From assembly GCF_004803635.1 (NCBI RefSeq), contig NZ_SSWX01000006.1, forward strand, positions 62,001 through 126,000: 64,000 nucleotides of DNA. The letters are read 5' to 3'. A model generated the notes under the pieces. It was not told the DNA's origin. It ran no database searches and saw only the letters and a list, made by a program, of their open reading frames with translations. The DNA is from Lampropedia aestuarii (lineage in GTDB: Bacteria > Pseudomonadota > Gammaproteobacteria > Burkholderiales > Burkholderiaceae_C). This document shows positions 50,845-64,000 of this stretch, piece after piece. A program made the position numbers and the translations under genes. Every line of letters starts with the position of its first letter. The stretch's first letter is position 1.

Positions 50845-52260
50845 TCAGTACGAAAAGCCCGGCAGCGCGGCGTCAGGTTTGAGACCTCCGGCCAAGAACG
50901 GCTCCCACACCTGGGCGGCATTGCGGCGCTCGGATTGCGCGCCGGGCAGCAGCGGCTGAAAGTCCGTGCCAGGCGGCAGTGGGTTGACCAGGGTCGGCGT
51001 GACGATGATGACCAGCTCGGTTTCTTCCTGTGAGTAACTGAGGTTTTTGAAAAACGCGCCCAAAATGGGCAAGTCGCCCAGCAGCGGCACTTTGTTGACG
51101 TTGGAGGCGGTGCTGCGGCTGACCAGGCCACCAATCACAAAGCTTTCGCCATCGGCCAGCTCGACCATGGTGTCGGCACGGCGGGTGCGAATGGCAGGCA
51201 CGGACACGCCACCGACCGAAACCGAGTTGGTGAAGTCCAGGTCACTGGCCTCTGGCGCGACCTTCAAGGCGATGCGCTCGTCAGACAGAATGGTTGGCGT
51301 CAGCTGCAGGCGCACACCGAATTCCTTGTACTCAATGGTGATATTGCCGTCTTTTGCTGCGACCGGGATGGGCAGCTCACCGCCGGCCAGGAAGCTGGCA
51401 CTTTGGCCCGAATGGGCCAGCAAGGTCGGCTTGGCCAATATGCGTGCCAGGCCATTGCCTTCGAGCACGCTCAGGCGTACATCCAGGCCGGCACCGCTGA
51501 ACGCATTGCCAAAGCCCATGACCAGGTTCATCGCGTCGGCAATCGGCGACTGGCCTGTGCCGGTGCTGGGGTTGTAGAGTCCAAAGTTGAAGCCGTGGTC
51601 GTTCGCACCCAGACTGGCGATATTGATGCCAGCACGCTTGAGTGCGGTTTTCTTGAACTCGACCACCTGCACATCGACTTGCACGGTGTTGCTTTTGACT
51701 GCGATGCGCGAGCGATCCTGCAGCGGTGTTCCTTCTGCAGCTTGTGTGCGCAAGCTGGCTGTGGCCTGGGCGTGCTCACTCAGGCTGGTGAGTTTGCGCT
51801 CCAGGATCAGGTTCTGCGCCAGCACCTGCACTTGCCAGTACTGTGGGGCGCCTTTGCCGCGTGGCCAGACGGTCAAGCTCGTGCGGCCCGGACTTTTGGC
51901 GGTCACCAAGAGCTCGGCGATGTCGGAGTTGCTCCCTGGTGTCTGGCGCAGCACCTGCACATCCAGTAGCTCTGGGTTGCCGACTGCGATGCGGCTGACG
52001 CCGTAGCCTGGTCTGAGCACCTGCTGGCTGCCGCTGTGCAGTTGCAATGCTTGGCTGCCTTCTGCAAAGGGGGGGCTGGGCGTATCCTGTGGTGCAGCAA
52101 TGCTGTCTGAAGCCGCAACCGGGAAGCTGGTGGTTTGGGCCTGCACTGGCAGGCTGCTGGCGGCCACGCCGATCAGCGTGCCCATCAGCGACAGTGCCAG
52201 GCACTGGCGTGGCGAGCGTGCGCGACCTTGCGCGGCTGGCAGTAAGAGGGAGTGGTTCAT
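50845..52260 (-). CDS. rcpA: RcpA/CpaC secretin of the Tad system
   Basis: This 471-residue outer-membrane secretin has a signal peptide (residues 1-~35), then the BON/N-domain region (LRPGYGVSRIAVGNPELLDV). The secretin domain starts around residue 240, with LARILAKPTLLAHSGQSASF, GGELPIPV and VELADGESFVIGGLVSRSTA, ending with ETELVIIVTPTLVNPLPPG. It forms the pilus exit pore. The ATG at 52260 gives the signal peptide at the right position. It is in line between cpaB and tadZ. Confidence 0.93.
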   Translation of the reverse strand: MNHSLLLPAAQGRARSPRQCLALSLMGTLIGVAASSLPVQAQTTSFPVAASDSIAAPQDTPSPPFAEGSQALQLHSGSQQVLRPGYGVSRIAVGNPELLDVQVLRQTPGSNSDIAELLVTAKSPGRTSLTVWPRGKGAPQYWQVQVLAQNLILERKLTSLSEHAQATASLRTQAAEGTPLQDRSRIAVKSNTVQVDVQVVEFKKTALKRAGINIASLGANDHGFNFGLYNPSTGTGQSPIADAMNLVMGFGNAFSGAGLDVRLSVLEGNGLARILAKPTLLAHSGQSASFLAGGELPIPVAAKDGNITIEYKEFGVRLQLTPTILSDERIALKVAPEASDLDFTNSVSVGGVSVPAIRTRRADTMVELADGESFVIGGLVSRSTASNVNKVPLLGDLPILGAFFKNLSYSQEETELVIIVTPTLVNPLPPGTDFQPLLPGAQSERRNAAQVWEPFLAGGLKPDAALPGFSY

Positions 52261-52280
52261 AGGGGCCTTTCCTGCTCGCA

Positions 52281-53342
52281 TCAGTAATGCACGGTTTGCA
52301 CGTTGGCGCCGTTGTAGATCTGTACCGGGCGCTGTTTCGGGCCTTGCTGGCTGCTGGAGATGGGCGCGGGCAACGGCGGGGCGGCGGCGCGCTTGCGGTT
52401 TTTGTCATCGCCGCCGGTGGCCAAATCATGCAGGCGCATGCCGGCAAACGCCCGGTCAGCGCCTTGCAGCTCTTGGTCCTTGGCGAGCGCGCCGGTTTTG
52501 GGGCGCAGCACGGCTGGCAGCGCGGTGAACAGTGCGGCATCGGGCACGGCCAGGTCGTCGGGGTGGCGCAGCGCCAAGGTCAGTTGGCCGTATTTTTCTG
52601 CCAGACTCAGGCGCTGCACATCGTCCAGCGGCACGGCCAGCACGGCGGTTTTGGCGTTTTCCGGGCGTTGGTTGTGTTCGTCACGGCCGGGCTGGTTGCC
52701 CGTGCGGCGGTTTTGGTTGGCTGGGTCTTGCTCGGCTCTTTGTTGCTGGGCCAGCGTTGGCGGTGGGTTTTCTACTGTGGCACCCCCATAGGCCAGCACG
52801 CGTGAGCGCGCCATCAGCAAGCGGTTTTGTGTGTCGACTGGGCTTTGGTCATTGGACTCGGCATCCAGGGTCACAAACACATCAACAAAATCGCCTGGGC
52901 GCACGCGGTGGCCGGCGGCCATGGCCTCATTGACAGCAATCGCAACTGCTCGCTGGCCAGGCTCCAATTGCAGCGCCAGGCCACTGATCACATTCTGCTC
53001 AAACAAAGGCGCATCGCTGGCCATGGCCAGTGTGGTGGTCTGGCCCACAGCCTGGCTGGTGCTGGCAAAGCTATTGGCCACTGGCATAGGCAATTGGGCA
53101 ATTTTCAGGTCTTCAGCACTGAGCTTGTGGCCCGCTGGTACATCTTTGGCCAATACCACCAGGTCATACAACACCGGTGGTGGAGCGGGTGCGGCTTGGC
53201 TGGGACTGCTGGATTCGGCCAGCATTGCGGCTGGCGCAGGGGCGACTTGCCGCTGGGGCTGGCGCATCAGCTGCCAGGCCAGCAGAGCCAGGGCCAGGGC
53301 CAGCACAATCAATATGCCGGCAATGATTTTGGTCAGTCTCAT
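52281..53342 (-). CDS. cpaB: RcpC/CpaB Flp pilus assembly protein
   Basis: This 353-residue protein has an N-terminal membrane helix (IAGILIVLALALALLAWQLM) and a SAF domain at residues ~60-125 (VVLAKDVPAGHKLSAEDLKI), typical of CpaB. A second conserved stretch follows (LEPGQRAVAIAVNEAMAAGH, VRPGDFVDVFVTLDAES). An Asn/Arg-rich insertion lies near residues 200-230. RcpC/CpaB binds or stabilises the secretin from the periplasm. Confidence 0.92.
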   Translation of the reverse strand: MRLTKIIAGILIVLALALALLAWQLMRQPQRQVAPAPAAMLAESSSPSQAAPAPPPVLYDLVVLAKDVPAGHKLSAEDLKIAQLPMPVANSFASTSQAVGQTTTLAMASDAPLFEQNVISGLALQLEPGQRAVAIAVNEAMAAGHRVRPGDFVDVFVTLDAESNDQSPVDTQNRLLMARSRVLAYGGATVENPPPTLAQQQRAEQDPANQNRRTGNQPGRDEHNQRPENAKTAVLAVPLDDVQRLSLAEKYGQLTLALRHPDDLAVPDAALFTALPAVLRPKTGALAKDQELQGADRAFAGMRLHDLATGGDDKNRKRAAAPPLPAPISSSQQGPKQRPVQIYNGANVQTVHY

Positions 53343-53599
53343 GGCGTGGCCTCCTGCGGGGTGACAGTGTGTCTGGGTAGTGCGAGATGCATGGCGAATC
53401 TAAAAAAGTATCGGTGCGAGCCAAGATGCGGATACTTTTCTTTCAGTGCCAAGCGGCAGCATGGCTGCAGCAGTCGCCTTGAGAGAAAAATACCTGCGGT
53501 ACATAGCGGTGGAGCAGCAATGACTCCATCAGGGATAGGAGGTTGGTCAATGGTGCTTCTGCATCGTTTGCGGCTCCGGTTGGTTGACCTGGTTGGTGT

Positions 53600-54142
53600 T
53601 CATGCGCGACTCCAAAGCATCAGCCCAATGGCAGCAATCGCCATATAACCGGCATAAGGAATGGAACGCGTGCGATTGCGGGCGACAAAATTCAGCTGCA
53701 GCTCCAGCGGTTTGGCAGGTGCCCCCACTGAACCCAGCTGTGTTTGTAGCCACACGCCCAATGGACGGTGTTGCAGTGCAGACCAGGCCAGCACAATGAG
53801 GCCGTGCAGACCGGCGAGCACACTGCCACCCACCCAAATGGCGAGTAACGCTGGGCTTGGGCCCAGCCACAGACCGATGACGGCAGCGAACTTCACGTCA
53901 CCAGCCCCCATCCAGCCCAATGCGTAAAACGGCAACAGCGCAATGGACGCCACCAGCATGCCAAGCACGCCGTTCAACGGCGTGACTTGGAAGGGGTGTG
54001 CGCCACTGAATAGCGCCACAGTGCCTATCGCTAGGCCCAGCAGCACCATCCAGTTGCGCACTTTGCGAATACGCAAGTCCATCACTGCTATGACGAGGAG
54101 CCATAGCAGTGAAAAGACTGCTAAGAGTACCGTTGCAGCCAT
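53600..54142 (-). CDS. tadV: TadV/CpaA prepilin peptidase
   Basis: This is a 180-residue A24-family aspartyl peptidase with four to five membrane helices. The two catalytic Asp residues are in AVMDLRIRKVRN near residue 22 and in GWMGAGDVKFAA near residue 80. It removes the leader from Flp and the TadE/F pseudopilins. It is shorter than PilD because it lacks the methyltransferase domain, as normal for TadV. It sits 18 bp after flp. Confidence 0.93.
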   Translation of the reverse strand: MAATVLLAVFSLLWLLVIAVMDLRIRKVRNWMVLLGLAIGTVALFSGAHPFQVTPLNGVLGMLVASIALLPFYALGWMGAGDVKFAAVIGLWLGPSPALLAIWVGGSVLAGLHGLIVLAWSALQHRPLGVWLQTQLGSVGAPAKPLELQLNFVARNRTRSIPYAGYMAIAAIGLMLWSRA

Positions 54143-54436: not shown

Positions 54437-56008
54437 CTACCACCAGCTCGCTGCTGTGGTGTGTGGGTAGGTGTCGATGTGCCGTGCAAAGCGCAGCTGC
54501 AGTGCAGGGCGCTCGGTCAGCAAGGCCAATGGCTGGCTGTGCTGCGGTGAACGGGCCATGCTCTCGGTCCTGTCAGGCACCTGGGCGTGCAGAAACAATT
54601 GGTGCATGCGCAACGCCGAGCTGCCTTCAGGCAACAAGCTGCCGGTTGTGCGCACCAGCTGCAGCTCGTTGATGCGTTGGTCGTGCTGTGCATCGGCCAG
54701 CTCCAGCATCAGGTTTTGCATGTCCAGCTGCGCATCCAGCACTTGGGATAAGCTGCCGCGGCCTGCTTCGAGCAAACGGCGCCGGCCGTCGAAAGCGCCG
54801 CCGGCCTCTGCCACGGCCGCTTGCAGCTCGCTGACGCGCGCGCGTCCTGCTTGCACACGGCCCCAGGATGAAGCGGCAGTCTCGCGCACCTGGCGCAGCA
54901 CGGCCTCTTGCTGGGCCTGCTGGCTTTGCAGCTCGTTCATCGCCTTGCGAATGCGGTCACGCACTTCAAAGCCGTTGCCAAAATTCCAGTTCAGCTCCAA
55001 GCCCATGCGTGTGCCGTCGTTGAACAGTACGCCTTTGGGGTCGTAAGTGTGGCTGGCAACGGCTTCGAGCGTAGGGAAGCGCTCGGCCTCGCTGCGTTCG
55101 ACCTCGGCCTGGGCTTTGGCGATTTGCTGGGCGATTTCTTGCAGCTCGGGACTGCTGGCTTCCGATTGCTGCAGTGCCTGTGCCTGGCTGTTTGGCAGCC
55201 ACTGGGCAGGCACGCTCAAATGGGGCAGGTGGCCTGTTGCGGGGCTGAAGCTGTAGTAGCGCGTAAAGCGCGCCAGCGCCACTGCGCGCTGCGACTCGAG
55301 TGACAGCTGCTGCGCGCGCGCGCTGGATTGGCGTGAGGCGGCTTGGCGCAAGTCGTTGCGGCCCACTGCACCCAGCTCGGCGCGGCGCTCTTCAATCTTG
55401 GCCAGTTGCGCGATGATGTTGGCCGACTCGGCCGCAATCGCGGCTTTTTGCTCGTAGCGCGACAGCTCCAGCAGTGCGGTCAGGGCTTCGAGTAAGGTAT
55501 TTTGGCGCGTGCCCTGCAGGATGCTGGCCTGCGCGGCTTGTTGGTACTCGGCCGAGCGCACATTGGCACTGATGGCGCCGCCGTCCAGCAAGCTCATGCG
55601 CACTTCTGCATTGATGGCGTTGTAATTTTCTTTGCCACTGCTGCGGTTGACGCTGCCTGAATTGGTGCCGACTTTGAAGTTCGGCCAGCGCGCATGTTCT
55701 GCGGTATTGAGGTCTTGGCCGGCGGCGGCAAGGGCTGCCTTGGCCCTGAGGATTTCAGGGTAGTTGTCGACCATGGTTTGCAAGGCCTCCAGCAGGCGTT
55801 GCTGGCTGCTGTTGCCAGCCAGGCTGTTGGTTGAGAGCCGTTGGGCCAATTGCAAAGAGGGCGGCGGCGGCGCACTGGGGGTTTGGGCAAGAGCAGGCAG
55901 GCAGCCCAGCACCAAAGCGGCAGCAACGGTCCATGTCAGGCCGGCAGGTTGCATGCTGGCACAGCCTGGGCGTGATGGAGTGGGGCACAAGCGCGTTAAC
56001 CTGGACAT
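54437..56008 (-). CDS. TolC family outer-membrane channel of type I secretion system
   Basis: This is a 523-residue outer-membrane efflux protein with a signal peptide ending LPALAQ (residue ~42). The mature part has the TolC repeat organisation of long helices and short strands (LLEALQTMVDNYPEILRAKA, LLDGGAISANVRSAEYQQAA, then LNWNFGNGFEVRDRIRKA in the second half). The C-terminal tail is longer than usual. It starts 1 bp after the adaptor gene and closes the three-gene exporter operon. The passenger is probably the glycine-rich repeat protein at 63336 onward. Confidence 0.9.
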   Translation of the reverse strand: MSRLTRLCPTPSRPGCASMQPAGLTWTVAAALVLGCLPALAQTPSAPPPPSLQLAQRLSTNSLAGNSSQQRLLEALQTMVDNYPEILRAKAALAAAGQDLNTAEHARWPNFKVGTNSGSVNRSSGKENYNAINAEVRMSLLDGGAISANVRSAEYQQAAQASILQGTRQNTLLEALTALLELSRYEQKAAIAAESANIIAQLAKIEERRAELGAVGRNDLRQAASRQSSARAQQLSLESQRAVALARFTRYYSFSPATGHLPHLSVPAQWLPNSQAQALQQSEASSPELQEIAQQIAKAQAEVERSEAERFPTLEAVASHTYDPKGVLFNDGTRMGLELNWNFGNGFEVRDRIRKAMNELQSQQAQQEAVLRQVRETAASSWGRVQAGRARVSELQAAVAEAGGAFDGRRRLLEAGRGSLSQVLDAQLDMQNLMLELADAQHDQRINELQLVRTTGSLLPEGSSALRMHQLFLHAQVPDRTESMARSPQHSQPLALLTERPALQLRFARHIDTYPHTTAASWW

Positions 56009-56009
56009 G

Positions 56010-57362
56010 TCATGGCTCCCGGAACGCTTCACTCTGGATGCGCAGCACCGGTCTGAGCAAATACCAGATGAATGGCTCATGGCCCAGCAGCAAGTCGACC
56101 TCGGCTTGCATGCCGGTGGTGATGCGGTTGTCTGTGCGGCCCACCCAGGGCTGCTCGACGCTGGCCAGAATGCGGAAATACGACGGTGCATCAGGCACAT
56201 CTTGGTCTCGGTCGGCATCAGCGGCCACCAGAGTGACTTTGCCGGGGACTGAGCCGTAACGCAAAAAGTCGTAGGCACTGACTTTGACCTTCACTTCCTG
56301 GCCGCTGCGCACATAACCGCGGTCAGACGGATTCAGGCGTGCTTCGACCAGAATTTCCTCTTTGTCGGGCACGATCTCCATGATGGGCTCGCCCGGTTTG
56401 ACAACCCAACCTGTGCCACTGCTGCGCAAGCCCTTGATGATGCCATCGGTGGGGGCCAGCACGACTGTGCGGGTGCGCTGGGTGCGTGCGCGGCTCAGGT
56501 CCTGGGTCAGGCTGTGCAAGTCGCGCTCAACACTGGCCAGTTCTTGCGAGGCGCGGCTGCGAAAGCTGCCTTGGGTTTCTTGCTGTTTGGCTTGTGCTAG
56601 CGCGACCTTGGCGTTGGCGCTCAGCAGGCTCTTTTGGGCGGCAGCCAGTTCGCTGCGCACTTGCTCCAGCGCGCGTTGTCTATCCAGCACTTCAAGCTGG
56701 CCAATCAACTGCTCTTGTGCCAGCTGCTGGGCGATATTGGCCTCTTGCTGGAACAGGTCCAGGCGTGTTTGCAAGCCTGTGATGCGTGTCTGGGTTTCGG
56801 CCACTTCGGCACGCGCTTGCTGCAAACTGGCCTGTGCGGCCGCGAGGCTGCCTTGGTGTTCCAAAGCGCGTGCTTCAAACGCGCCCAGCTCGGCGCTCAC
56901 CACCTGGCTGTCGAGTTCTTTGGAGAAGTCGCTGGCCTGTAGTGTTTTGCCCATGCTCTCGGCACTCAGGCGCACTTTCATGGCCTGCGTGGCCGCGTGT
57001 CTGGCAGTCAGTTGCTCCAAGTTGAGGCTGGTGCTGCCCAGATCGATTTCCAGCAAGGGCTGGTCCCGCTCGACAGCCTGGCCTTCGCGCACATGCACGG
57101 CGCTGACAATGCCGCCTTCCAGATGCTGCACGGTTTGCACACGGTCCGAAGGAATCACCTTGCCTGGCGCGACGACTGCATTCTCAACGGGATAAAACAG
57201 GCCGGTCAGTGTCAGCGCTGCTAGCAGCAGCAAGCCCCATTTGTGTTTGCCGCTCCAGCGTTTGGTGGCGGTGGCCAGCGTGGCCTGGTCAACGCCTGCC
57301 TTGCCCTGGGCTTGGCGCAGTACCTGCGGCAGCTGATGGTATGGGGGCAGCTTGTGTGTCAT
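56010..57362 (-). CDS. HlyD family membrane fusion protein of type I secretion system
   Basis: This 450-residue inner-membrane adaptor has one membrane helix (residues ~35-55, WGLLLLAALTLTGLFYPVEN). A barrel-sandwich domain starts ENAVVAPGKVIPSDRVQTVQ and HLEGGIVSAVHVREGQAVER. Long coiled coils fill residues ~120-270, and the C-terminal HlyD_D23-like part has VLAPTDGIIKGLRSSGTGWV, then VKPGEPIMEIVPDKEE. It overlaps the ABC gene by four bases (ATGA), so it is translationally coupled. Confidence 0.93.
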   Translation of the reverse strand: MTHKLPPYHQLPQVLRQAQGKAGVDQATLATATKRWSGKHKWGLLLLAALTLTGLFYPVENAVVAPGKVIPSDRVQTVQHLEGGIVSAVHVREGQAVERDQPLLEIDLGSTSLNLEQLTARHAATQAMKVRLSAESMGKTLQASDFSKELDSQVVSAELGAFEARALEHQGSLAAAQASLQQARAEVAETQTRITGLQTRLDLFQQEANIAQQLAQEQLIGQLEVLDRQRALEQVRSELAAAQKSLLSANAKVALAQAKQQETQGSFRSRASQELASVERDLHSLTQDLSRARTQRTRTVVLAPTDGIIKGLRSSGTGWVVKPGEPIMEIVPDKEEILVEARLNPSDRGYVRSGQEVKVKVSAYDFLRYGSVPGKVTLVAADADRDQDVPDAPSYFRILASVEQPWVGRTDNRITTGMQAEVDLLLGHEPFIWYLLRPVLRIQSEAFREP

Positions 57363-59176
57363 GCGGCCTCCTGCTGGGCTGGGCCGTGTCCGGCGGCACT
57401 GGCGTGCTCAGTGGCTGGAGCCACACCAAAGAGTTTGGGCAAGAGCTCGGTGGCGGTGCCTTGCTCGATCTGGCCATCGCCACAGACATGGTAGATGCGC
57501 TGGGCAATCGAGGCCACCCGCACTGAATGGGTGATGACAATGACCGTGTGCTTTTGGGCGATTTTGTGCAGCGTGTGCAGCAGTGTGGTTTCGCTCTCAA
57601 AATCCAAATCACTGCTTGGCTCATCCAAAATCAGCACAGTGGGGTTGCGCAAGAACAATTGCGCCAATGCCAGTTTGCGCAGCTCACCGGCCGATACACC
57701 GGTGCCCCCTTCGCCCAGCACAGTTTGGTAGCCCTGTGGCAGGCGTGAGATGAACTGGTGCGCGCCAGCAACCTGGCAGGCTGCGACAACCTGTGCATCG
57801 CTGGCCTGGCCGTTGACCATGCGCAAGCTGTCGATGATTGGGCCGCTGAACCAGTAAATTTGCTGGCCTAAACAGCCAATCCATTCGCCAATGTCGCCGC
57901 GCGAGAATTGCGCCAGATCGTACTCGTCAATGAATACATGGCCATCTGTGGGCGCATACAGTCCCGCCAGCAGTTTGCCCAGGGTCGATTTGCCTGCGCC
58001 GTTGCGGCCCACGATGGCATGCAGACCGCCTGGGCCCATCGACAGGCTCACCGCGTCCAAGGTGTGGTGGCCATTGGCATACTGGAAGCTGGCTTGTTTG
58101 AGCTGCATATGCCCCTTGGGGCGTGGTAGTGACAGGTTTTGCGAGGCCGGCTCGACCGGCTCTTGCAGCACCGCCTGCAGGCGTTGGGTGGCTTCGTTGG
58201 CACGTGCCAGCGAGCGCCAGTTGCCCGCCAGCTGGGCAATCGGGCCCAGCGCTTTGCTGGCCAGCAGGTTGACGGCCATCAGACTGCCGATGCTCATCCA
58301 TTGCGAATTGATGGCTACGGCACCGACAGTAATCACCGCGATGGTGAAGAAGGACAGCAATATGGTGTTGGCTTCACGTGTGTTTTCCAACTCACCGTTT
58401 TTGCTAAAGCTCTCACTGAGCCAGGTGTCGTAATCGTTTTGCCAAGTTTGGCGCACCGCCTCATCATGGCCCAAGAGCTTGAGGGTGGCGCGTGCATTGC
58501 AGACCTCGGTGGTTTGGCGATCGAGTGATCTGGCTTGCGCCAGCTCTTCGACACGGCCGCTGCGCACCTCATCGGCCCACCACCAGGCCAGCACACCTAG
58601 GATCACCATGGCCACCAAGATCACAGGCAATACGGGCAAGGCCACGATGCCAATCACAATCAAGGCCAGAATGACCATGGGCAAGTCCATCAAGGCACTG
58701 GCCAGACCGCCTGAGATGCTGGAGCGCATGGCTGGAACATCACGGAATAACTGCAGCCATTGGCTGGTGGGGCGTTGCTCCAGGTCTTGCAAAGGCCGTT
58801 GCAGCATCGAGGCCATCAAGGCCCTGGAGACGCGGTAGTCGATCTCCGCGCCCGCTTCACGCAGCGCTTTGGCGCGCTTGCGGCGCAGCCACCATTCAAT
58901 GCACAGAAAGCACAGCACACCTGCAACCATGGCGATCAAGGTGGAGTTACCGCCGCGCGCAATTACCCGGTTGTAGACCTGTAAGACAAAGATGGAGGGC
59001 AGCAAACCCAGTAAGCCAATCGGCACAGACAACCATGCGGCCGCGCGCACATGCTGCCAAGCGCCAGTGCACGCGTCGGCAATGGCCGCTGCATAAGGGC
59101 TTGTTGTGCTTGCGTGGTGTTTCCCTTCAGGCGGACTGAGGGGCTGCAAGCGGCTTGGCATCAGGTACTTAAGCAT
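57359..59176 (-). CDS. Type I secretion ABC transporter, permease-ATPase fusion
   Basis: This 605-residue exporter subunit has six membrane helices in residues ~45-330 and no C39 peptidase domain. The ATPase part has Walker A IVGRNGAGKSTLGKLLAG near residue 390, a signature GVSAGELRKLALAQ (degenerate LSGGQ), Walker B VLILDEPSSDLDFE and the H-loop VIVITHSVR. The helix-rich N-terminus and motif set fit RTX/LapB-like exporters. The ATG has AAAGG 7 bases upstream. It follows an AT-rich promoter region and leads the ABC-HlyD-TolC operon. Confidence 0.93.
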   Translation of the reverse strand: MLKYLMPSRLQPLSPPEGKHHASTTSPYAAAIADACTGAWQHVRAAAWLSVPIGLLGLLPSIFVLQVYNRVIARGGNSTLIAMVAGVLCFLCIEWWLRRKRAKALREAGAEIDYRVSRALMASMLQRPLQDLEQRPTSQWLQLFRDVPAMRSSISGGLASALMDLPMVILALIVIGIVALPVLPVILVAMVILGVLAWWWADEVRSGRVEELAQARSLDRQTTEVCNARATLKLLGHDEAVRQTWQNDYDTWLSESFSKNGELENTREANTILLSFFTIAVITVGAVAINSQWMSIGSLMAVNLLASKALGPIAQLAGNWRSLARANEATQRLQAVLQEPVEPASQNLSLPRPKGHMQLKQASFQYANGHHTLDAVSLSMGPGGLHAIVGRNGAGKSTLGKLLAGLYAPTDGHVFIDEYDLAQFSRGDIGEWIGCLGQQIYWFSGPIIDSLRMVNGQASDAQVVAACQVAGAHQFISRLPQGYQTVLGEGGTGVSAGELRKLALAQLFLRNPTVLILDEPSSDLDFESETTLLHTLHKIAQKHTVIVITHSVRVASIAQRIYHVCGDGQIEQGTATELLPKLFGVAPATEHASAAGHGPAQQEAA

Positions 59177-59542: not shown

Positions 59543-62536
59543 TCAGGCTGCGAGCTCGCGAATTGCAACTGCAACAAGGTTGAGATTGACTATTGCCCGA
59601 CCAAACAGCAATACCGTGTCATGCGGCTGCAATGTGCGCAACAGCGAGTCAATCAGCTGGTTCAAGTCCTGGTACCAGCTCACCTGATGCAGTCCATGGA
59701 GCTGCTGCGCCAGGTCGGCCATCGCTTGGCCGTAGAGCAGGATGCGCCGTGCGGGGGTGCTTTGTAGCAGTGGTGCAAGCAGCATCTGCGCCTCTACTAA
59801 GCTGCCCGTTTGCTCAGCGCAAGCCTTGATGCCACCCAGGACGATCAAGCGCTGGCTCGGATCGGGGGCATGGCTGAGCAGCTGGGCAAATGCCGCGTGC
59901 GCTGCCAGGAGTTCGCTGGTGTTGCTGTGGTCGAGCATGACACGGTTGCCCGGCAGGTACTCTGACTGTCCGGCCCCTGGCAGTGGGCTCCAGTGGCGCA
60001 ATGCGCTGGCGTGGGTGGCCAGTGGCAGCTGCATGGCCTGCAACGCAGCCAAGGCTGCCTGGGCATTGAGCGCCATGTGGTGCCCGTTGGCTTGCAGCTC
60101 AACGCGCATGACAGGGGCTGAGCTGGATGTGTCTGTATTGGCGCAGGGCTGTAACTGGATATGCAAATGACCGCTGTTTTCCCAGCCATATTCATACACG
60201 GTGGCGCCAGGCTGCGGGCCAAAAGTGCTGAGCCTTATGTGTGCACGGGCGGCCAGCGCCTGCAAGGTCTCCGGTGGCAGCAAGCAGGCATTCAGAATGA
60301 GTAGACTGCCTGGGCGCATGGCGGACATCAGTTCCTGCAGGGCTTGCTCAATCTGACTGGCCAGTGGCGGACCAGCATCGCCCGTGGGGGCGGGCGGCAG
60401 ATTGGTCACAACCAGGATATCGGGGGCAAGCATTTGCAATTGTTCAGGCACGCTTTGCCAGGGCAGCTCGGCCAAAAGCCAGGGGGCGGTCTCGCTCCAG
60501 TGGAGCATTTGCAGGGCGGGGGCGTGTTGCACGATGGCATCTTGCTGCGCTGAGCTGCTGCCAAACAGGCACTGGGCCAGCATGCGCAGAGTCGATGTTT
60601 TGCCAGTGCAGCCGGTCACGCCAATGACTTGGCCTTGTACGCGTTGCCGAGCATGCCCGGCCAGGCGCTGCAAGGCTTCATGCAGCCCCGCTACCTCCAG
60701 TACTGGCAAGTCCGGGGGGATTGGGTGGCCAGTCACTTGGATCAAGGCGCTGGGCTGCAACGATGCAGCAACTGCGGCCGGAACGCCGAGTGCATCGCCT
60801 GTGTGGCGCACCAGCACCGCTGCGCCTTGCGAGTGGCTTTGGCGCGTCACGCTCAAGCCGGTAAGCGCAGCTGGCACAGACATGCCTTGCGGCAGATGCC
60901 ACTGTCCGGCCATCAACGAGGCCATGCTCTGGCCACTCCAGGGCATTGGCGCAGCGGGGCTGGCAGTATGCGCTGTATCGGAGTTGCGCGCAGCGTTGGG
61001 GGCCGGCGCTGTGGGCGCCAGGCCGTGTAGCAGCGCCACACAGGCACTGGCCTGGTTGAGCCAAAGCGCTTGCTGTGCCAGGCCTGGTTGCGACTGCTCA
61101 GCCTCTGACGGCCAAGGGGCTGTTGTGAACAGCATGTGCATTTGCTGGCGCTGCTGCATGTACATCGCCGTCTCAGGCCAGGCAAAGTGTTGGTGCAACG
61201 CATCGAGTTGCTCCAGCGTGCGCTTGCGCTCCAGCGGGCAAAGTGGGCTGGCAGAATTGCGTGTGGCCGGGTCCTGGCAGGCTTCTACCAACGCACAGCT
61301 CAGCCATGGTGGACTGTGGCGGTGGGCGTTCACAAATGGCTGGGCCAGCAGGTGCAGCCAGTTCTCGGGCCAGTCCAAGTGTGGCAGAGCGCTGGCAGAG
61401 CTGGCGCGCGTCGTGCAGGCGCTGCTGCTCGCATAGGCACGCAGTGCCAGTCGTTGCAGCAGAGCCAGTGCAGTGGGGCTGTGCTGGCTGGGGGCAGGCG
61501 ATTGGGGGGGCGTGCTGGCCAATGCCTGTTCGGTGTGCTGGGCCAGCTTGTGCAGCGCCGCTGCCACTGGTGGCTGCGCTGCTGCGTTGTGCTCAAGTAC
61601 GGTGGTGCTCAAACTCAGCACCAGCAATGCCCAGGCTTGCTCTTGTGCATCTTGGGGCACGGCATTGGCTGCGTAATTGCTGGCACGCGCGAGTGCCGAC
61701 ACCAAGGGAGCGAAGGTGCTGGCGTTGCGTGGTGCTGGCCCGGTGCGTAGTAATTGCAGCAGGCTGTACTGAACCTGCAAGTGTTCGGCCAGGGTACTGC
61801 TTTGCGGCCAGTGGCCTGCAGGCATTTGCTGGGCAATCAGGCCCACAAAGGCCGCTTGCCCCGCGTGGTGCAGCTGCATATCCATGCCTGCAGGGGCCGT
61901 GGTGCCTTGCAGTGGCGCTAATGGGTTTCTGGGCAGATGGATAGGGGCCGTGCTGTAGGGGTCTAGAAAAATGCCGCGCATGCGCAGCACCAGCCAAGAC
62001 TCACGTGCGGCATGGCCAGCCAGGATGGCGCCAGCCCAAGCCGGCAAGTCTGCAGCAGGTGCCAACAGTGCTTGTTGCAAGAGCAGCGTGTGCTCACAGC
62101 CCAGATCCGCGATAGCGCTGTTGCTGCGTCGCAGTTGTTCTACGTCATTGGCACTGAGCTGGTGGCCGGCTGGGTAGACCAGGACTTCTTCAGCCCAGTC
62201 AATGCGCAGGGCGGCGCTATCGAGTCGTCTGGCCCAGGCCCACTGCCGCACACGGATGGAGCCTTCGCGCCAAGCCGATTTAAAGGTATGGGCCTTGATA
62301 GGAAATACGGTGGCCAATTCGTTGGCATGGGCCACCGAAAAAACCAGCACGCAGCCTGGCCATGGCTCGGGCAGGCCTTGTAGCCTGAGTGCCAGGTGCT
62401 GGCGGGCGTGCTCCAGGATTTGGTCCAGCACCACCGGGCCTTGGGCCAAGGCCGCAGACGCGCTCCAATGCGCCCTGGGCACTTCTGTGCGAACTGGCGG
62501 GCTGTTGGAGTGAAAGGATGGAACCGGTAGGCTCAT
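59543..62536 (-). CDS. Large protein with Mur-ligase-like C-terminal part, unknown N-terminal half
   Basis: This 997-residue protein has a C-terminal ~440 residues that follow the MurF layout. They comprise a substrate domain (ALTGLSVTRQSHSQGAAVLV), an ATP domain with the P-loop GVTGCTGKTSTL at residues 639-650 and the acidic strand WLLAELPW, then LAPDILVVTNLPPA. A C-terminal domain has LDHSNTSELLAAHAA at about 868 in the place of MurF's DSYNANP. The first ~550 residues are Ala/Gln/Leu-rich and helical and match nothing I know. The ATG at 62536 has AAAGG upstream. The gene sits between the exporter and the OmpA-like gene, all in one direction. It cannot be the housekeeping MurF judging by its architecture; ligation of an amino acid or peptide to a cell-surface component is inference. 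Confidence 0.75.
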   Translation of the reverse strand: MSLPVPSFHSNSPPVRTEVPRAHWSASAALAQGPVVLDQILEHARQHLALRLQGLPEPWPGCVLVFSVAHANELATVFPIKAHTFKSAWREGSIRVRQWAWARRLDSAALRIDWAEEVLVYPAGHQLSANDVEQLRRSNSAIADLGCEHTLLLQQALLAPAADLPAWAGAILAGHAARESWLVLRMRGIFLDPYSTAPIHLPRNPLAPLQGTTAPAGMDMQLHHAGQAAFVGLIAQQMPAGHWPQSSTLAEHLQVQYSLLQLLRTGPAPRNASTFAPLVSALARASNYAANAVPQDAQEQAWALLVLSLSTTVLEHNAAAQPPVAAALHKLAQHTEQALASTPPQSPAPSQHSPTALALLQRLALRAYASSSACTTRASSASALPHLDWPENWLHLLAQPFVNAHRHSPPWLSCALVEACQDPATRNSASPLCPLERKRTLEQLDALHQHFAWPETAMYMQQRQQMHMLFTTAPWPSEAEQSQPGLAQQALWLNQASACVALLHGLAPTAPAPNAARNSDTAHTASPAAPMPWSGQSMASLMAGQWHLPQGMSVPAALTGLSVTRQSHSQGAAVLVRHTGDALGVPAAVAASLQPSALIQVTGHPIPPDLPVLEVAGLHEALQRLAGHARQRVQGQVIGVTGCTGKTSTLRMLAQCLFGSSSAQQDAIVQHAPALQMLHWSETAPWLLAELPWQSVPEQLQMLAPDILVVTNLPPAPTGDAGPPLASQIEQALQELMSAMRPGSLLILNACLLPPETLQALAARAHIRLSTFGPQPGATVYEYGWENSGHLHIQLQPCANTDTSSSAPVMRVELQANGHHMALNAQAALAALQAMQLPLATHASALRHWSPLPGAGQSEYLPGNRVMLDHSNTSELLAAHAAFAQLLSHAPDPSQRLIVLGGIKACAEQTGSLVEAQMLLAPLLQSTPARRILLYGQAMADLAQQLHGLHQVSWYQDLNQLIDSLLRTLQPHDTVLLFGRAIVNLNLVAVAIRELAA

Positions 62537-62759
62537 GGCTAAACCTTTGCAGACAATCAATGCGCAGGTGCTACAACGCACGCTCACGGCTTTGGCATAG
62601 ACCAGCTCTGCACAAAGCCCTGTGGTGGCTGAGCACGACCTCAGACGGTCTGGCGTGCACGTTTTTTTCGTCCATATCGATGGCTATGGCGTTCAAAAGA
62701 GCGCCTGGAGCGCACCGTGGGGCTATACGCATTTCAGCAGCGGGGGCAATAGCAGCGGT

Positions 62760-63275
62760 CTAGCGATAGTCGAATTCCACCCGGCGGTTGCGCTGGTGGG
62801 CGGCCTCATTGCTGCCGACATCGGCCAGTTGTTCTTTGCCGTAGCTCACCGCTTCCAGTTGTTTGGCATCTACGCCCAGGATCTGCAGCGTTTGTTTGAC
62901 GGTTTGTGCACGTCGCTGGCCCAGCGCCAGGTTGTACTCCGAGCCACCACGGGCATCGGTATGGCCGCGCAAGACGACTGCCCGCTCAGGGTGCTGTCGC
63001 AGCCATTGCGCATGGGCCTCGACCACGCTGCGGTCGCTGGGGCGAAGTGCATCGGAGTCAAAATCAAAATACACCAAGGTGGCGACATTTTCGGGGCCCC
63101 GGCCTGCCGGGGCAGTTTGAGCGACGACCGAGGCGACGCTGTTGGTGGCGCGCGGTTTGCCAAACGCATAGGTATGCGATGACTTTTCGGAGCTGCTGGC
63201 GCCTGTGTTGGCACAAGCCGATAAGGCCAGCGCCAACAACGCGCAGACTGGTAAGGTGATTCGAAGCATGGACAT
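62760..63275 (-). CDS. OmpA/Pal-like lipoprotein
   Basis: This is a 171-residue lipoprotein: a lipobox ALALSACAN (Cys near residue 20) and a C-terminal OmpA peptidoglycan-binding domain at residues ~65-171. The domain shows VYFDFDSDALRPSDRSVVEA, GHTDARGGSEYNLALGQRRA and VSYGKEQLADVGSNEAAHQR with the closing NRRVEFDYR. These residues bind diaminopimelate in peptidoglycan. In this locus it could anchor the exporter channel or the secreted repeat protein to the wall. The frame begins earlier, but the ATG at 63275 gives the lipoprotein signal. Confidence 0.92.
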   Translation of the reverse strand: MSMLRITLPVCALLALALSACANTGASSSEKSSHTYAFGKPRATNSVASVVAQTAPAGRGPENVATLVYFDFDSDALRPSDRSVVEAHAQWLRQHPERAVVLRGHTDARGGSEYNLALGQRRAQTVKQTLQILGVDAKQLEAVSYGKEQLADVGSNEAAHQRNRRVEFDYR

Positions 63276-63335
63276 AAGGCTCTCTCGATAAGGTTGCCAC
63301 TGCGTTGCAGTGGCAACCAAGGGGCTTGCGCGTGT

Positions 63336-64000
63336 TTAGGCGACTTGGTGGTGCTGCAGTTGCTGCGCCAAAGACAGACCGGTGTCGCTGTCGGCAATGC
63401 TGCTGATCGGCGCTGTGATGGACTCCAGTCCATCATTGCTTGCTGTGGCCAGTGGCGCGATTTGGGCCTTGCCCAGCAAACCGCCGAGCAAGCCGCCGCC
63501 GCCCAGCAAGCCGCCGAGCAAACCGCCGTTGCTGCTGCCACCCAACAGGCCGCCATCACCACCGGTGATGCCGCCCACCAAGCCGCTGACCAGGCCGTTG
63601 TTGCCCAGTAGTCCATCGAGCAAGCCTGCGTTGCCTCCGGCAACTCCACCGAGCAAACCGCCGACCGGACCGTTTTCGCCCAGCACGGTGCCGACCACGC
63701 CGCTGACCAGACCGGTTTCACCGACCAGGCCATTGAGCAGGCCACCGTCGCTTCCGGTCACGCCGCCAAGCAAACCGCCGACCAGACCGTTTTCGCCCAG
63801 CACGGTGTCGACCACACCACTGACCAGACCGGTTTCACCGACCAGGCCATTGAGCAGGCCACCGTCGCCACCAGTGACGCCGCCGAGCAGGCCACCGACC
63901 AGACCGTTTTCGCCCAGCACAGTGTCGACTACGCCACCGACCAGACCGTTTTCACCGACCAGGCCACCGAGCAGGCCGCTGTCACCACCGGTGATACCGC
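63336..64000 (-). CDS. Glycine-rich repeat surface protein (C-terminal part, gene continues beyond window)
   Basis: The visible ~220 residues are almost entirely Gly, Leu, Val, Asn and Asp repeats of the form GENGLVGGLLGGVTGGDGG and LLNGLVGETGLVSGVVDTVL, 39 residues per unit. The last 45 residues are non-repetitive (from GKAQIAPLATASNDGLESIT to the end QQLQHHQVA) and could carry a type I secretion signal, although no RTX nonapeptides are visible. The frame is open to the end of the window, so the gene starts upstream. It is followed by the OmpA-like, Mur-ligase-like and exporter genes in the same direction, making it the likely exported passenger. Similar proteins are sometimes labelled collagen-like, but the Gly spacing here is not a strict Gly-X-Y. 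Confidence 0.8.
   Translation of the reverse strand, partial: GITGGDSGLLGGLVGENGLVGGVVDTVLGENGLVGGLLGGVTGGDGGLLNGLVGETGLVSGVVDTVLGENGLVGGLLGGVTGSDGGLLNGLVGETGLVSGVVGTVLGENGPVGGLLGGVAGGNAGLLDGLLGNNGLVSGLVGGITGGDGGLLGGSSNGGLLGGLLGGGGLLGGLLGKAQIAPLATASNDGLESITAPISSIADSDTGLSLAQQLQHHQVA
63661..64000 (-). repeat. 117-bp tandem repeats encoding 39-residue units
   Basis: The plus-strand string CCGACCGGACCGTTTTCGCC or near-identical forms recurs at 63661, 63778 and 63895, exactly 117 bp apart, and the third unit runs out of the window. A diverged shorter unit (about 75 bp) precedes it at 63586. The copies differ mainly at synonymous positions and a few Ser/Gly or Asp/Gly exchanges. Confidence 0.92.

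Follow-up and report, generated by a model that had tools for sequence, protein, structure and literature searches.

A Mur ligase-like protein with a conserved, unnamed N-terminal half, apparently catalytically degenerate, beside type I secretion genes in Lampropedia aestuarii

What is the role of a protein that carries a Mur ligase fold behind some 560 residues that resemble no named family? The protein is encoded in a 64,000-nt stretch of the Lampropedia aestuarii genome (contig NZ_SSWX01000006.1, positions 62,001–126,000; hereafter the window). Its open reading frame lies on the minus strand, runs from an ATG at 62536 to 59543 and encodes 997 residues; a GTG at 62587 is an alternative upstream start that gives 1014 residues. 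The plus-strand reading across 59543–62536 contains many stops. Intact frames of similar length and 32–42% identity are present in three further Lampropedia genomes, so the gene is not a chance open reading frame. These full-length orthologs (G002, about 40–42% identity; G004, 36%; G001, 32%) each adjoin the same secretion genes, and an ortholog is absent from most other genus genomes searched. Other relatives match the protein partially, at residues 43–120 (a larger protein of G032) or residues 531–993 (MurF-like proteins). The gene is called Ndom-Mur here, Ndom being a conserved half of about 560 residues that relatives with differing C-terminal domains share.

The window gene order is repeat protein, OmpA lipoprotein, Ndom-Mur, ABC transporter, HlyD and TolC, all on the minus strand. 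Downstream of Ndom-Mur are the type I secretion system (T1SS) genes. They encode a 605-residue ABC transporter (57359–59176; TIGR03375/TIGR01842, 80% identical in G002 and placed in a tree), an HlyD-type periplasmic adaptor (56010–57362; TIGR01843, 312 bits, above the cut-off) and a TolC-type outer membrane protein (listed frame 54437–56278, with the true start probably further downstream; OEP 168.9 bits, TIGR01844 123.6 bits). Upstream are a Pal/OmpA-like lipoprotein (62760–63320; TIGR02802, 127.2 bits) and a 1217-residue repeat protein, of which the C-terminal end, with LLGG/LVGE repeats and a PT[DEN] tract, occupies 63336–64000 and the rest extends past the window edge. The order repeat protein, Ndom-Mur, ABC transporter, HlyD and TolC is identical in Variovorax. 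The gap from Ndom-Mur to the ABC gene is 367 nt in the window and about 366–418 nt in most Variovorax loci with the same transporter type (type A, below). Candidate Flp/Tad pilus frames (secretin-like, CpaB-like and prepilin peptidase-like) lie directly 3′ of the T1SS genes, at 50845–54142.

A preliminary description of the sequence had claimed a C-terminal Mur ligase fold, and profile searches bore this out. Pfam Mur_ligase_M matches residues 640–831 (E 3.6e-6) and Mur_ligase_C matches residues 881–980 (E 3.7e-5; 25 bits, slightly below the Pfam cut-off of 28.4). The top NCBIfam match is murF (TIGR01143), at residues 599–988 (59573–60742); its 84.6 bits fall far short of the cut-off, 288.6. 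MurFs are also the top PDB sequence matches, at residues 524–906. No Pfam ATP-grasp match was found in the protein, which separates it from cyanophycin synthetase CphA1, another large protein of several domains, one of them Mur-like; the cyanophycin synthetase model TIGR02068 scores 9.0 bits, where its cut-off is 850. PgsB/CapB is not among the NCBIfam matches, an absence of match and nothing further. The architecture is unlike MurC–F and cyanophycin synthetase and appears unlike PgsB/CapB, as the preliminary description held.

The catalytic state of the Mur-like half was read from an alignment of 50 Ndom-MurF proteins, the four Lampropedia orthologs and MurFs of related genomes. Six active-site positions were scored: the P-loop Lys, the Mg-binding Glu, a His, the carbamylated Lys, an Asn and an Arg, whose roles are established for Mur ligases. 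The window protein resembles MurF in its middle and C-terminal Mur domains, its P-loop and its motif order. The P-loop GVTGCTGKTST (residues 639–649; 60590–60622) is retained, as are the Glu and the Asn. Among the Lampropedia orthologs, the P-loop Lys and Glu are present in 4/4 and the adenine-site Asn in 3/4. With its P-loop and Glu in place, the window protein may still bind ATP. Unlike MurF, the window copy has an extra 560-residue N-terminal half and lacks the catalytic His, the carbamylated Lys, the ATP-site Arg and DSYNANP, which is replaced by DHSNTSE (residues 869–875; 59912–59932); the C-terminal K.S is also lost. Both motifs are where the preliminary description has them: the P-loop starts at residue 639, and DHSNTSE, from residue 869, lies in the C-terminal domain. 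Its proposal that the altered DSYNANP changes adenine and active-site contacts holds in that the motif is altered, but this is one loss among several. Together these losses point to a catalytically degenerate member. A separate MurF frame in the same genome (L002) has its main motifs intact, so peptidoglycan synthesis need not depend on Ndom-Mur.

Loss of catalytic residues follows the transporter type. A transporter tree separates type A, the window's type, from the distant type B with full support. All six residues are kept at 16/16 type-B loci versus 1/24 type-A loci, a count from which the type-A Xylophilus locus L059 (an Ndom+PGA_cap+Mur protein) was left out. A related type-A protein, from G032 (L024), retains all six. 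The Variovorax Mur domain lacks the P-loop Lys, His and carbamylated Lys but keeps DANP. This set overlaps only in part with that of the window copy, so lineages differ in what they have lost.

The N-terminal half had been described as unrecognised, and residues 1 to about 560 indeed match no family in Pfam, NCBIfam or the PDB. A scan of genome contigs with the window protein alone returned zero relatives; an Ndom alignment was needed. With hhalign, the four Lampropedia N-terminal halves aligned to 63 canonical Ndoms over residues 37–271 (probability 99.2%, E 2.4e-19), and the A2 profile matches the N-terminal half of the window protein at E 8.3e-9. The half is, on these profile comparisons, a member of a widespread family and not a one-off: searched with the Ndom profile, named genomes from across Proteobacteria yield at least 527 loci, and Ndom is commonly fused to Mur domains in proteins of about 1030 residues. 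Residues 37–125 (LPEPWPGCVLVFSVA...SAWREG...LRIDW; 62162–62428) are the best-conserved part by hhalign, model and identity to G002. The window copy has 33/150 conserved Ndom residues, no better than shuffled controls (26–47), so this count was dropped as evidence in favor of the profile-profile comparison. The motifs YDGEA, HDHWL and RHHxFRxRIDD occur in 80/80, 80/80 and 78/80 canonical members, and none occurs in the window protein or its three genus orthologs. The protein was therefore filed as a degenerate relative, not an intact member. With the T1SS-linked Ndom-Mur family defined here it shares Ndom homology, a MurF-like domain in the same frame, and adjacent T1SS genes with a giant repeat protein.

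Ndom fusion partners are MurF-like domains (L024), GT4 glycosyltransferases of the SdgB type (L025), GT2 glycosyltransferases (L027) and PGA_cap+Mur. Ndom+MurF, about 1030–1060 residues, is the commonest architecture among the loci kept. At L025:6901-10158, the GT4 domain matches NF047881 SdgB and takes the place of the Mur ligase; at L027:9694-12483, a GT2 domain does so. L. hyalina encodes a 2391-residue frame with Ndom, PGA_cap, Mur ligase, acylphosphatase, VanY and MurF domains (L022:5239-12414, the same as L034:10001-17176). In G026 (L023) and G013 (L026), two overlapping reading frames encode Ndom and Mur separately, through a frameshift, a sequencing error or a split gene. Two Variovorax loci (L055 and L056) encode 572-residue Ndom-only proteins at the Ndom-Mur position before the ABC gene, with the Mur half missing.

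Predicted structures give the canonical Ndom a fold. The AF2 model of a canonical L. cohaerens Ndom has a pLDDT of 94.5, and Ndom in intact relatives is predicted to be a small domain followed by an (alpha/alpha)6 barrel. The best match of residues 221–570 is cellobiose 2-epimerase 5zhb (Z 27.8, rmsd 2.7, 317 residues aligned), followed by D-mannose isomerase, GH76 and others; weak Pfam matches to GH88, GH76 and GH127 agree with the barrel fold. Identity to N-acylglucosamine/cellobiose 2-epimerases is about 10–16%, and the window copy differs from them in lacking the barrel motifs. The model of the window N-terminal half has a mean pLDDT of 56 and is confident only at residues 40–130 (about 90) and 181–195. 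Residues of about 220–530 (60947–61879) are helical with low confidence and are presumed to be an eroded counterpart of the barrel; barrel homology was not found beyond residue 271, where the hhalign alignment stops. Foldseek with the model of the window N-terminal half gave no match at E ≤ 0.001. VIA matches of that model reach a Z of about 8 at most, within noise. Residues 42–208 have three weak VIA matches (Z about 5–7) to the small archaeal proteins 1vaj, 1zq7 and 1wsc, which we take to be AMMECR1-type, and a profile of the first 200 or so Ndom residues has zero PDB sequence matches. A weak match of Ndom to YceG/MltG and a weak 2r1f match were taken for chance.

Ndom genes are repeatedly linked to T1SS genes and acidic-repeat proteins. 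Among 79 named Ndom loci, a sample into which contig breaks and the sampling of Variovorax bring bias, a T1SS ABC transporter is present in 45 and HlyD in 48, and many loci with no detected partner end at contig ends. A frame with at least eight consecutive acidic dipeptides lies near Ndom in 51/79; the dipeptides are mostly Asp-Ala or Asp-Ser, and some tracts are hundreds long. Across 301 genomes of the host's family, the repeat pattern occurs in 8/10 genomes with a strong Ndom match versus 22/291 others (Fisher 1.5e-7, with related genomes that are not independent). One scanned repeat protein adjoining Ndom, at L070, contains BapA_N. In the window repeat protein the tract is of a mixed PT[DEN] type and not DA/DS, which makes a shared substrate less clear there. 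On an Agrobacterium large plasmid (L144), an Ndom-Mur gene adjoins T1SS genes; on a Sulfitobacter large plasmid (L145), one adjoins a gene for a protein annotated as BapA prefix-like, together with condensation-domain and polyketide synthase genes. Both plasmid copies are annotated merely as "Mur ligase family protein". L. cohaerens has a degenerate Ndom-Mur gene (L029, 15101-18160) next to a repeat protein that contains a long run of Ser-Asp, and also carries a canonical Ndom+GT2 gene elsewhere in the genome (L027).

In Paracoccus denitrificans, biofilm requires BapA, a predicted T1SS substrate that contains 891 repeats of Asp-Ala (PMC5588039). A T1SS next to a giant repeat protein is common to that system and the window, but the window repeat protein lacks the DA tract. 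A word search of PMC5588039 returned no mention of a Mur-type gene, and no description of a Mur ligase linked to T1SS adhesins was found in the open-access papers searched.

Selection on the gene is uneven. In nine Variovorax genomes, median dN/dS is 0.086 for the broken Mur domain, 0.149 for Ndom and 0.119 for the ABC transporter; the Mur domain is under strong purifying selection although it is apparently inactive. Synonymous sites in Lampropedia are close to saturated. Ndom-Mur is about 40–42% identical to its nearest ortholog, versus 80% for the ABC transporter, 87% for HlyD and 66% for TolC. Along the protein, identity to G002 is 63% at residues 30–125, 34% at residues 125–540 and 48% in the Mur part. 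The Lampropedia gene evolves fast with both ends constrained; constraint is local, not absent.

We propose, as an explanation about evenly balanced between right and wrong, that the window protein is a catalytically degenerate Ndom-Mur member kept as a non-catalytic partner for export of the T1SS repeat adhesin, and that intact members ligate onto the repeats. In intact members, Ndom, with its small domain and epimerase-like barrel, would bind the adhesin while it is unfolded and still cytoplasmic. Before export, and at the cost of ATP, the MurF-like half would couple an amino acid or a short peptide to the side-chain carboxylates in the Asp-Ala or Asp-Ser tracts. Such a ligation would resemble the addition of Arg to Asp side chains by the Mur-like domain of CphA1 (PMC9262961). 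The Lampropedia copy would have lost the ligase chemistry. It probably works as a non-enzymatic helper, and could assist export of the neighboring 1217-residue repeat protein by binding it or as a scaffold, in the manner of a substrate holder, a chaperone or an assembly factor. A more specific form of the proposal, tentative and somewhat unlikely in full, is that intact members act on a ribosomally made protein and form isopeptide bonds between amino acids or peptides and the Asp side chains in (Asp-Ala)n/(Asp-Ser)n tracts of the adhesin. The product, made ahead of type I secretion, would be a genetically encoded, cyanophycin-like protein with decorated side chains, and the Lampropedia gene would be a pseudo-enzyme offshoot kept as a partner in secretion. 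Decoration of dipeptide-repeat adhesins has a precedent in SdgA/SdgB, which glycosylate Ser-Asp repeats (PMC3794999). The Ndom relative L025 bears an SdgB-type GT4, and the window protein differs in having a Mur-like domain instead of a glycosyltransferase. The association of Ndom with adhesin genes may also reflect shared regulation instead of an enzyme and its substrate.

Retention of the P-loop Lys and Glu in all four orthologs and of the Asn in three, together with a long frame intact across four genomes, would also suit a still-active ATP-dependent ligase with altered specificity and a changed acceptor pocket. We regard such a ligase as unlikely, given the five catalytic features lost from the window copy. 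In CphA1, the Mur-like domain becomes inactive when the D585/H586 pair is mutated (PMC9262961), and this pair may be equivalent to the lost His. It is quite unlikely that the family makes a cell-envelope polymer, such as a poly-amino acid or a modified peptidoglycan peptide (compare PgsB/CapB and MurF), and merely shares the adhesin locus. PGA_cap+Mur fusions do resemble CapA+CapB, and the giant L. hyalina protein includes VanY and acylphosphatase domains. The repeated linkage with T1SS genes and acidic-repeat proteins argues against a polymer, as does fusion of Ndom to an SdgB-like glycosyltransferase, which suggests a protein acceptor.

Fast divergence relative to the operon neighbors also fits decay. 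The Lampropedia copy could be a functionless relic whose frame is open since the loss was recent or slow; motifs are lost in both halves, most other genus genomes searched have no ortholog, and the Mur half is absent at some related type-A loci (L055 and L056). Yet a frame of about 1000 codons stays open in four species, the two ends are better conserved than the middle, and purifying selection acts strongly on the Variovorax counterpart, which leaves decay without function improbable as well. The degenerate, non-catalytic export partner remains the reading we prefer.

The findings bear on a widespread "Mur ligase family protein" whose conserved, unnamed module is linked to giant T1SS adhesins with acidic repeats; the catalytic domain beside the module is a Mur ligase in some members and a glycosyltransferase in others. 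A natural case of Mur ligases that have become apparent pseudo-enzymes is provided by the copies in Lampropedia and Variovorax. Should intact members indeed modify the repeats, biofilm adhesins would have a protein modification of a new kind, and the purpose of the Asp-Ala tracts would be partly explained.
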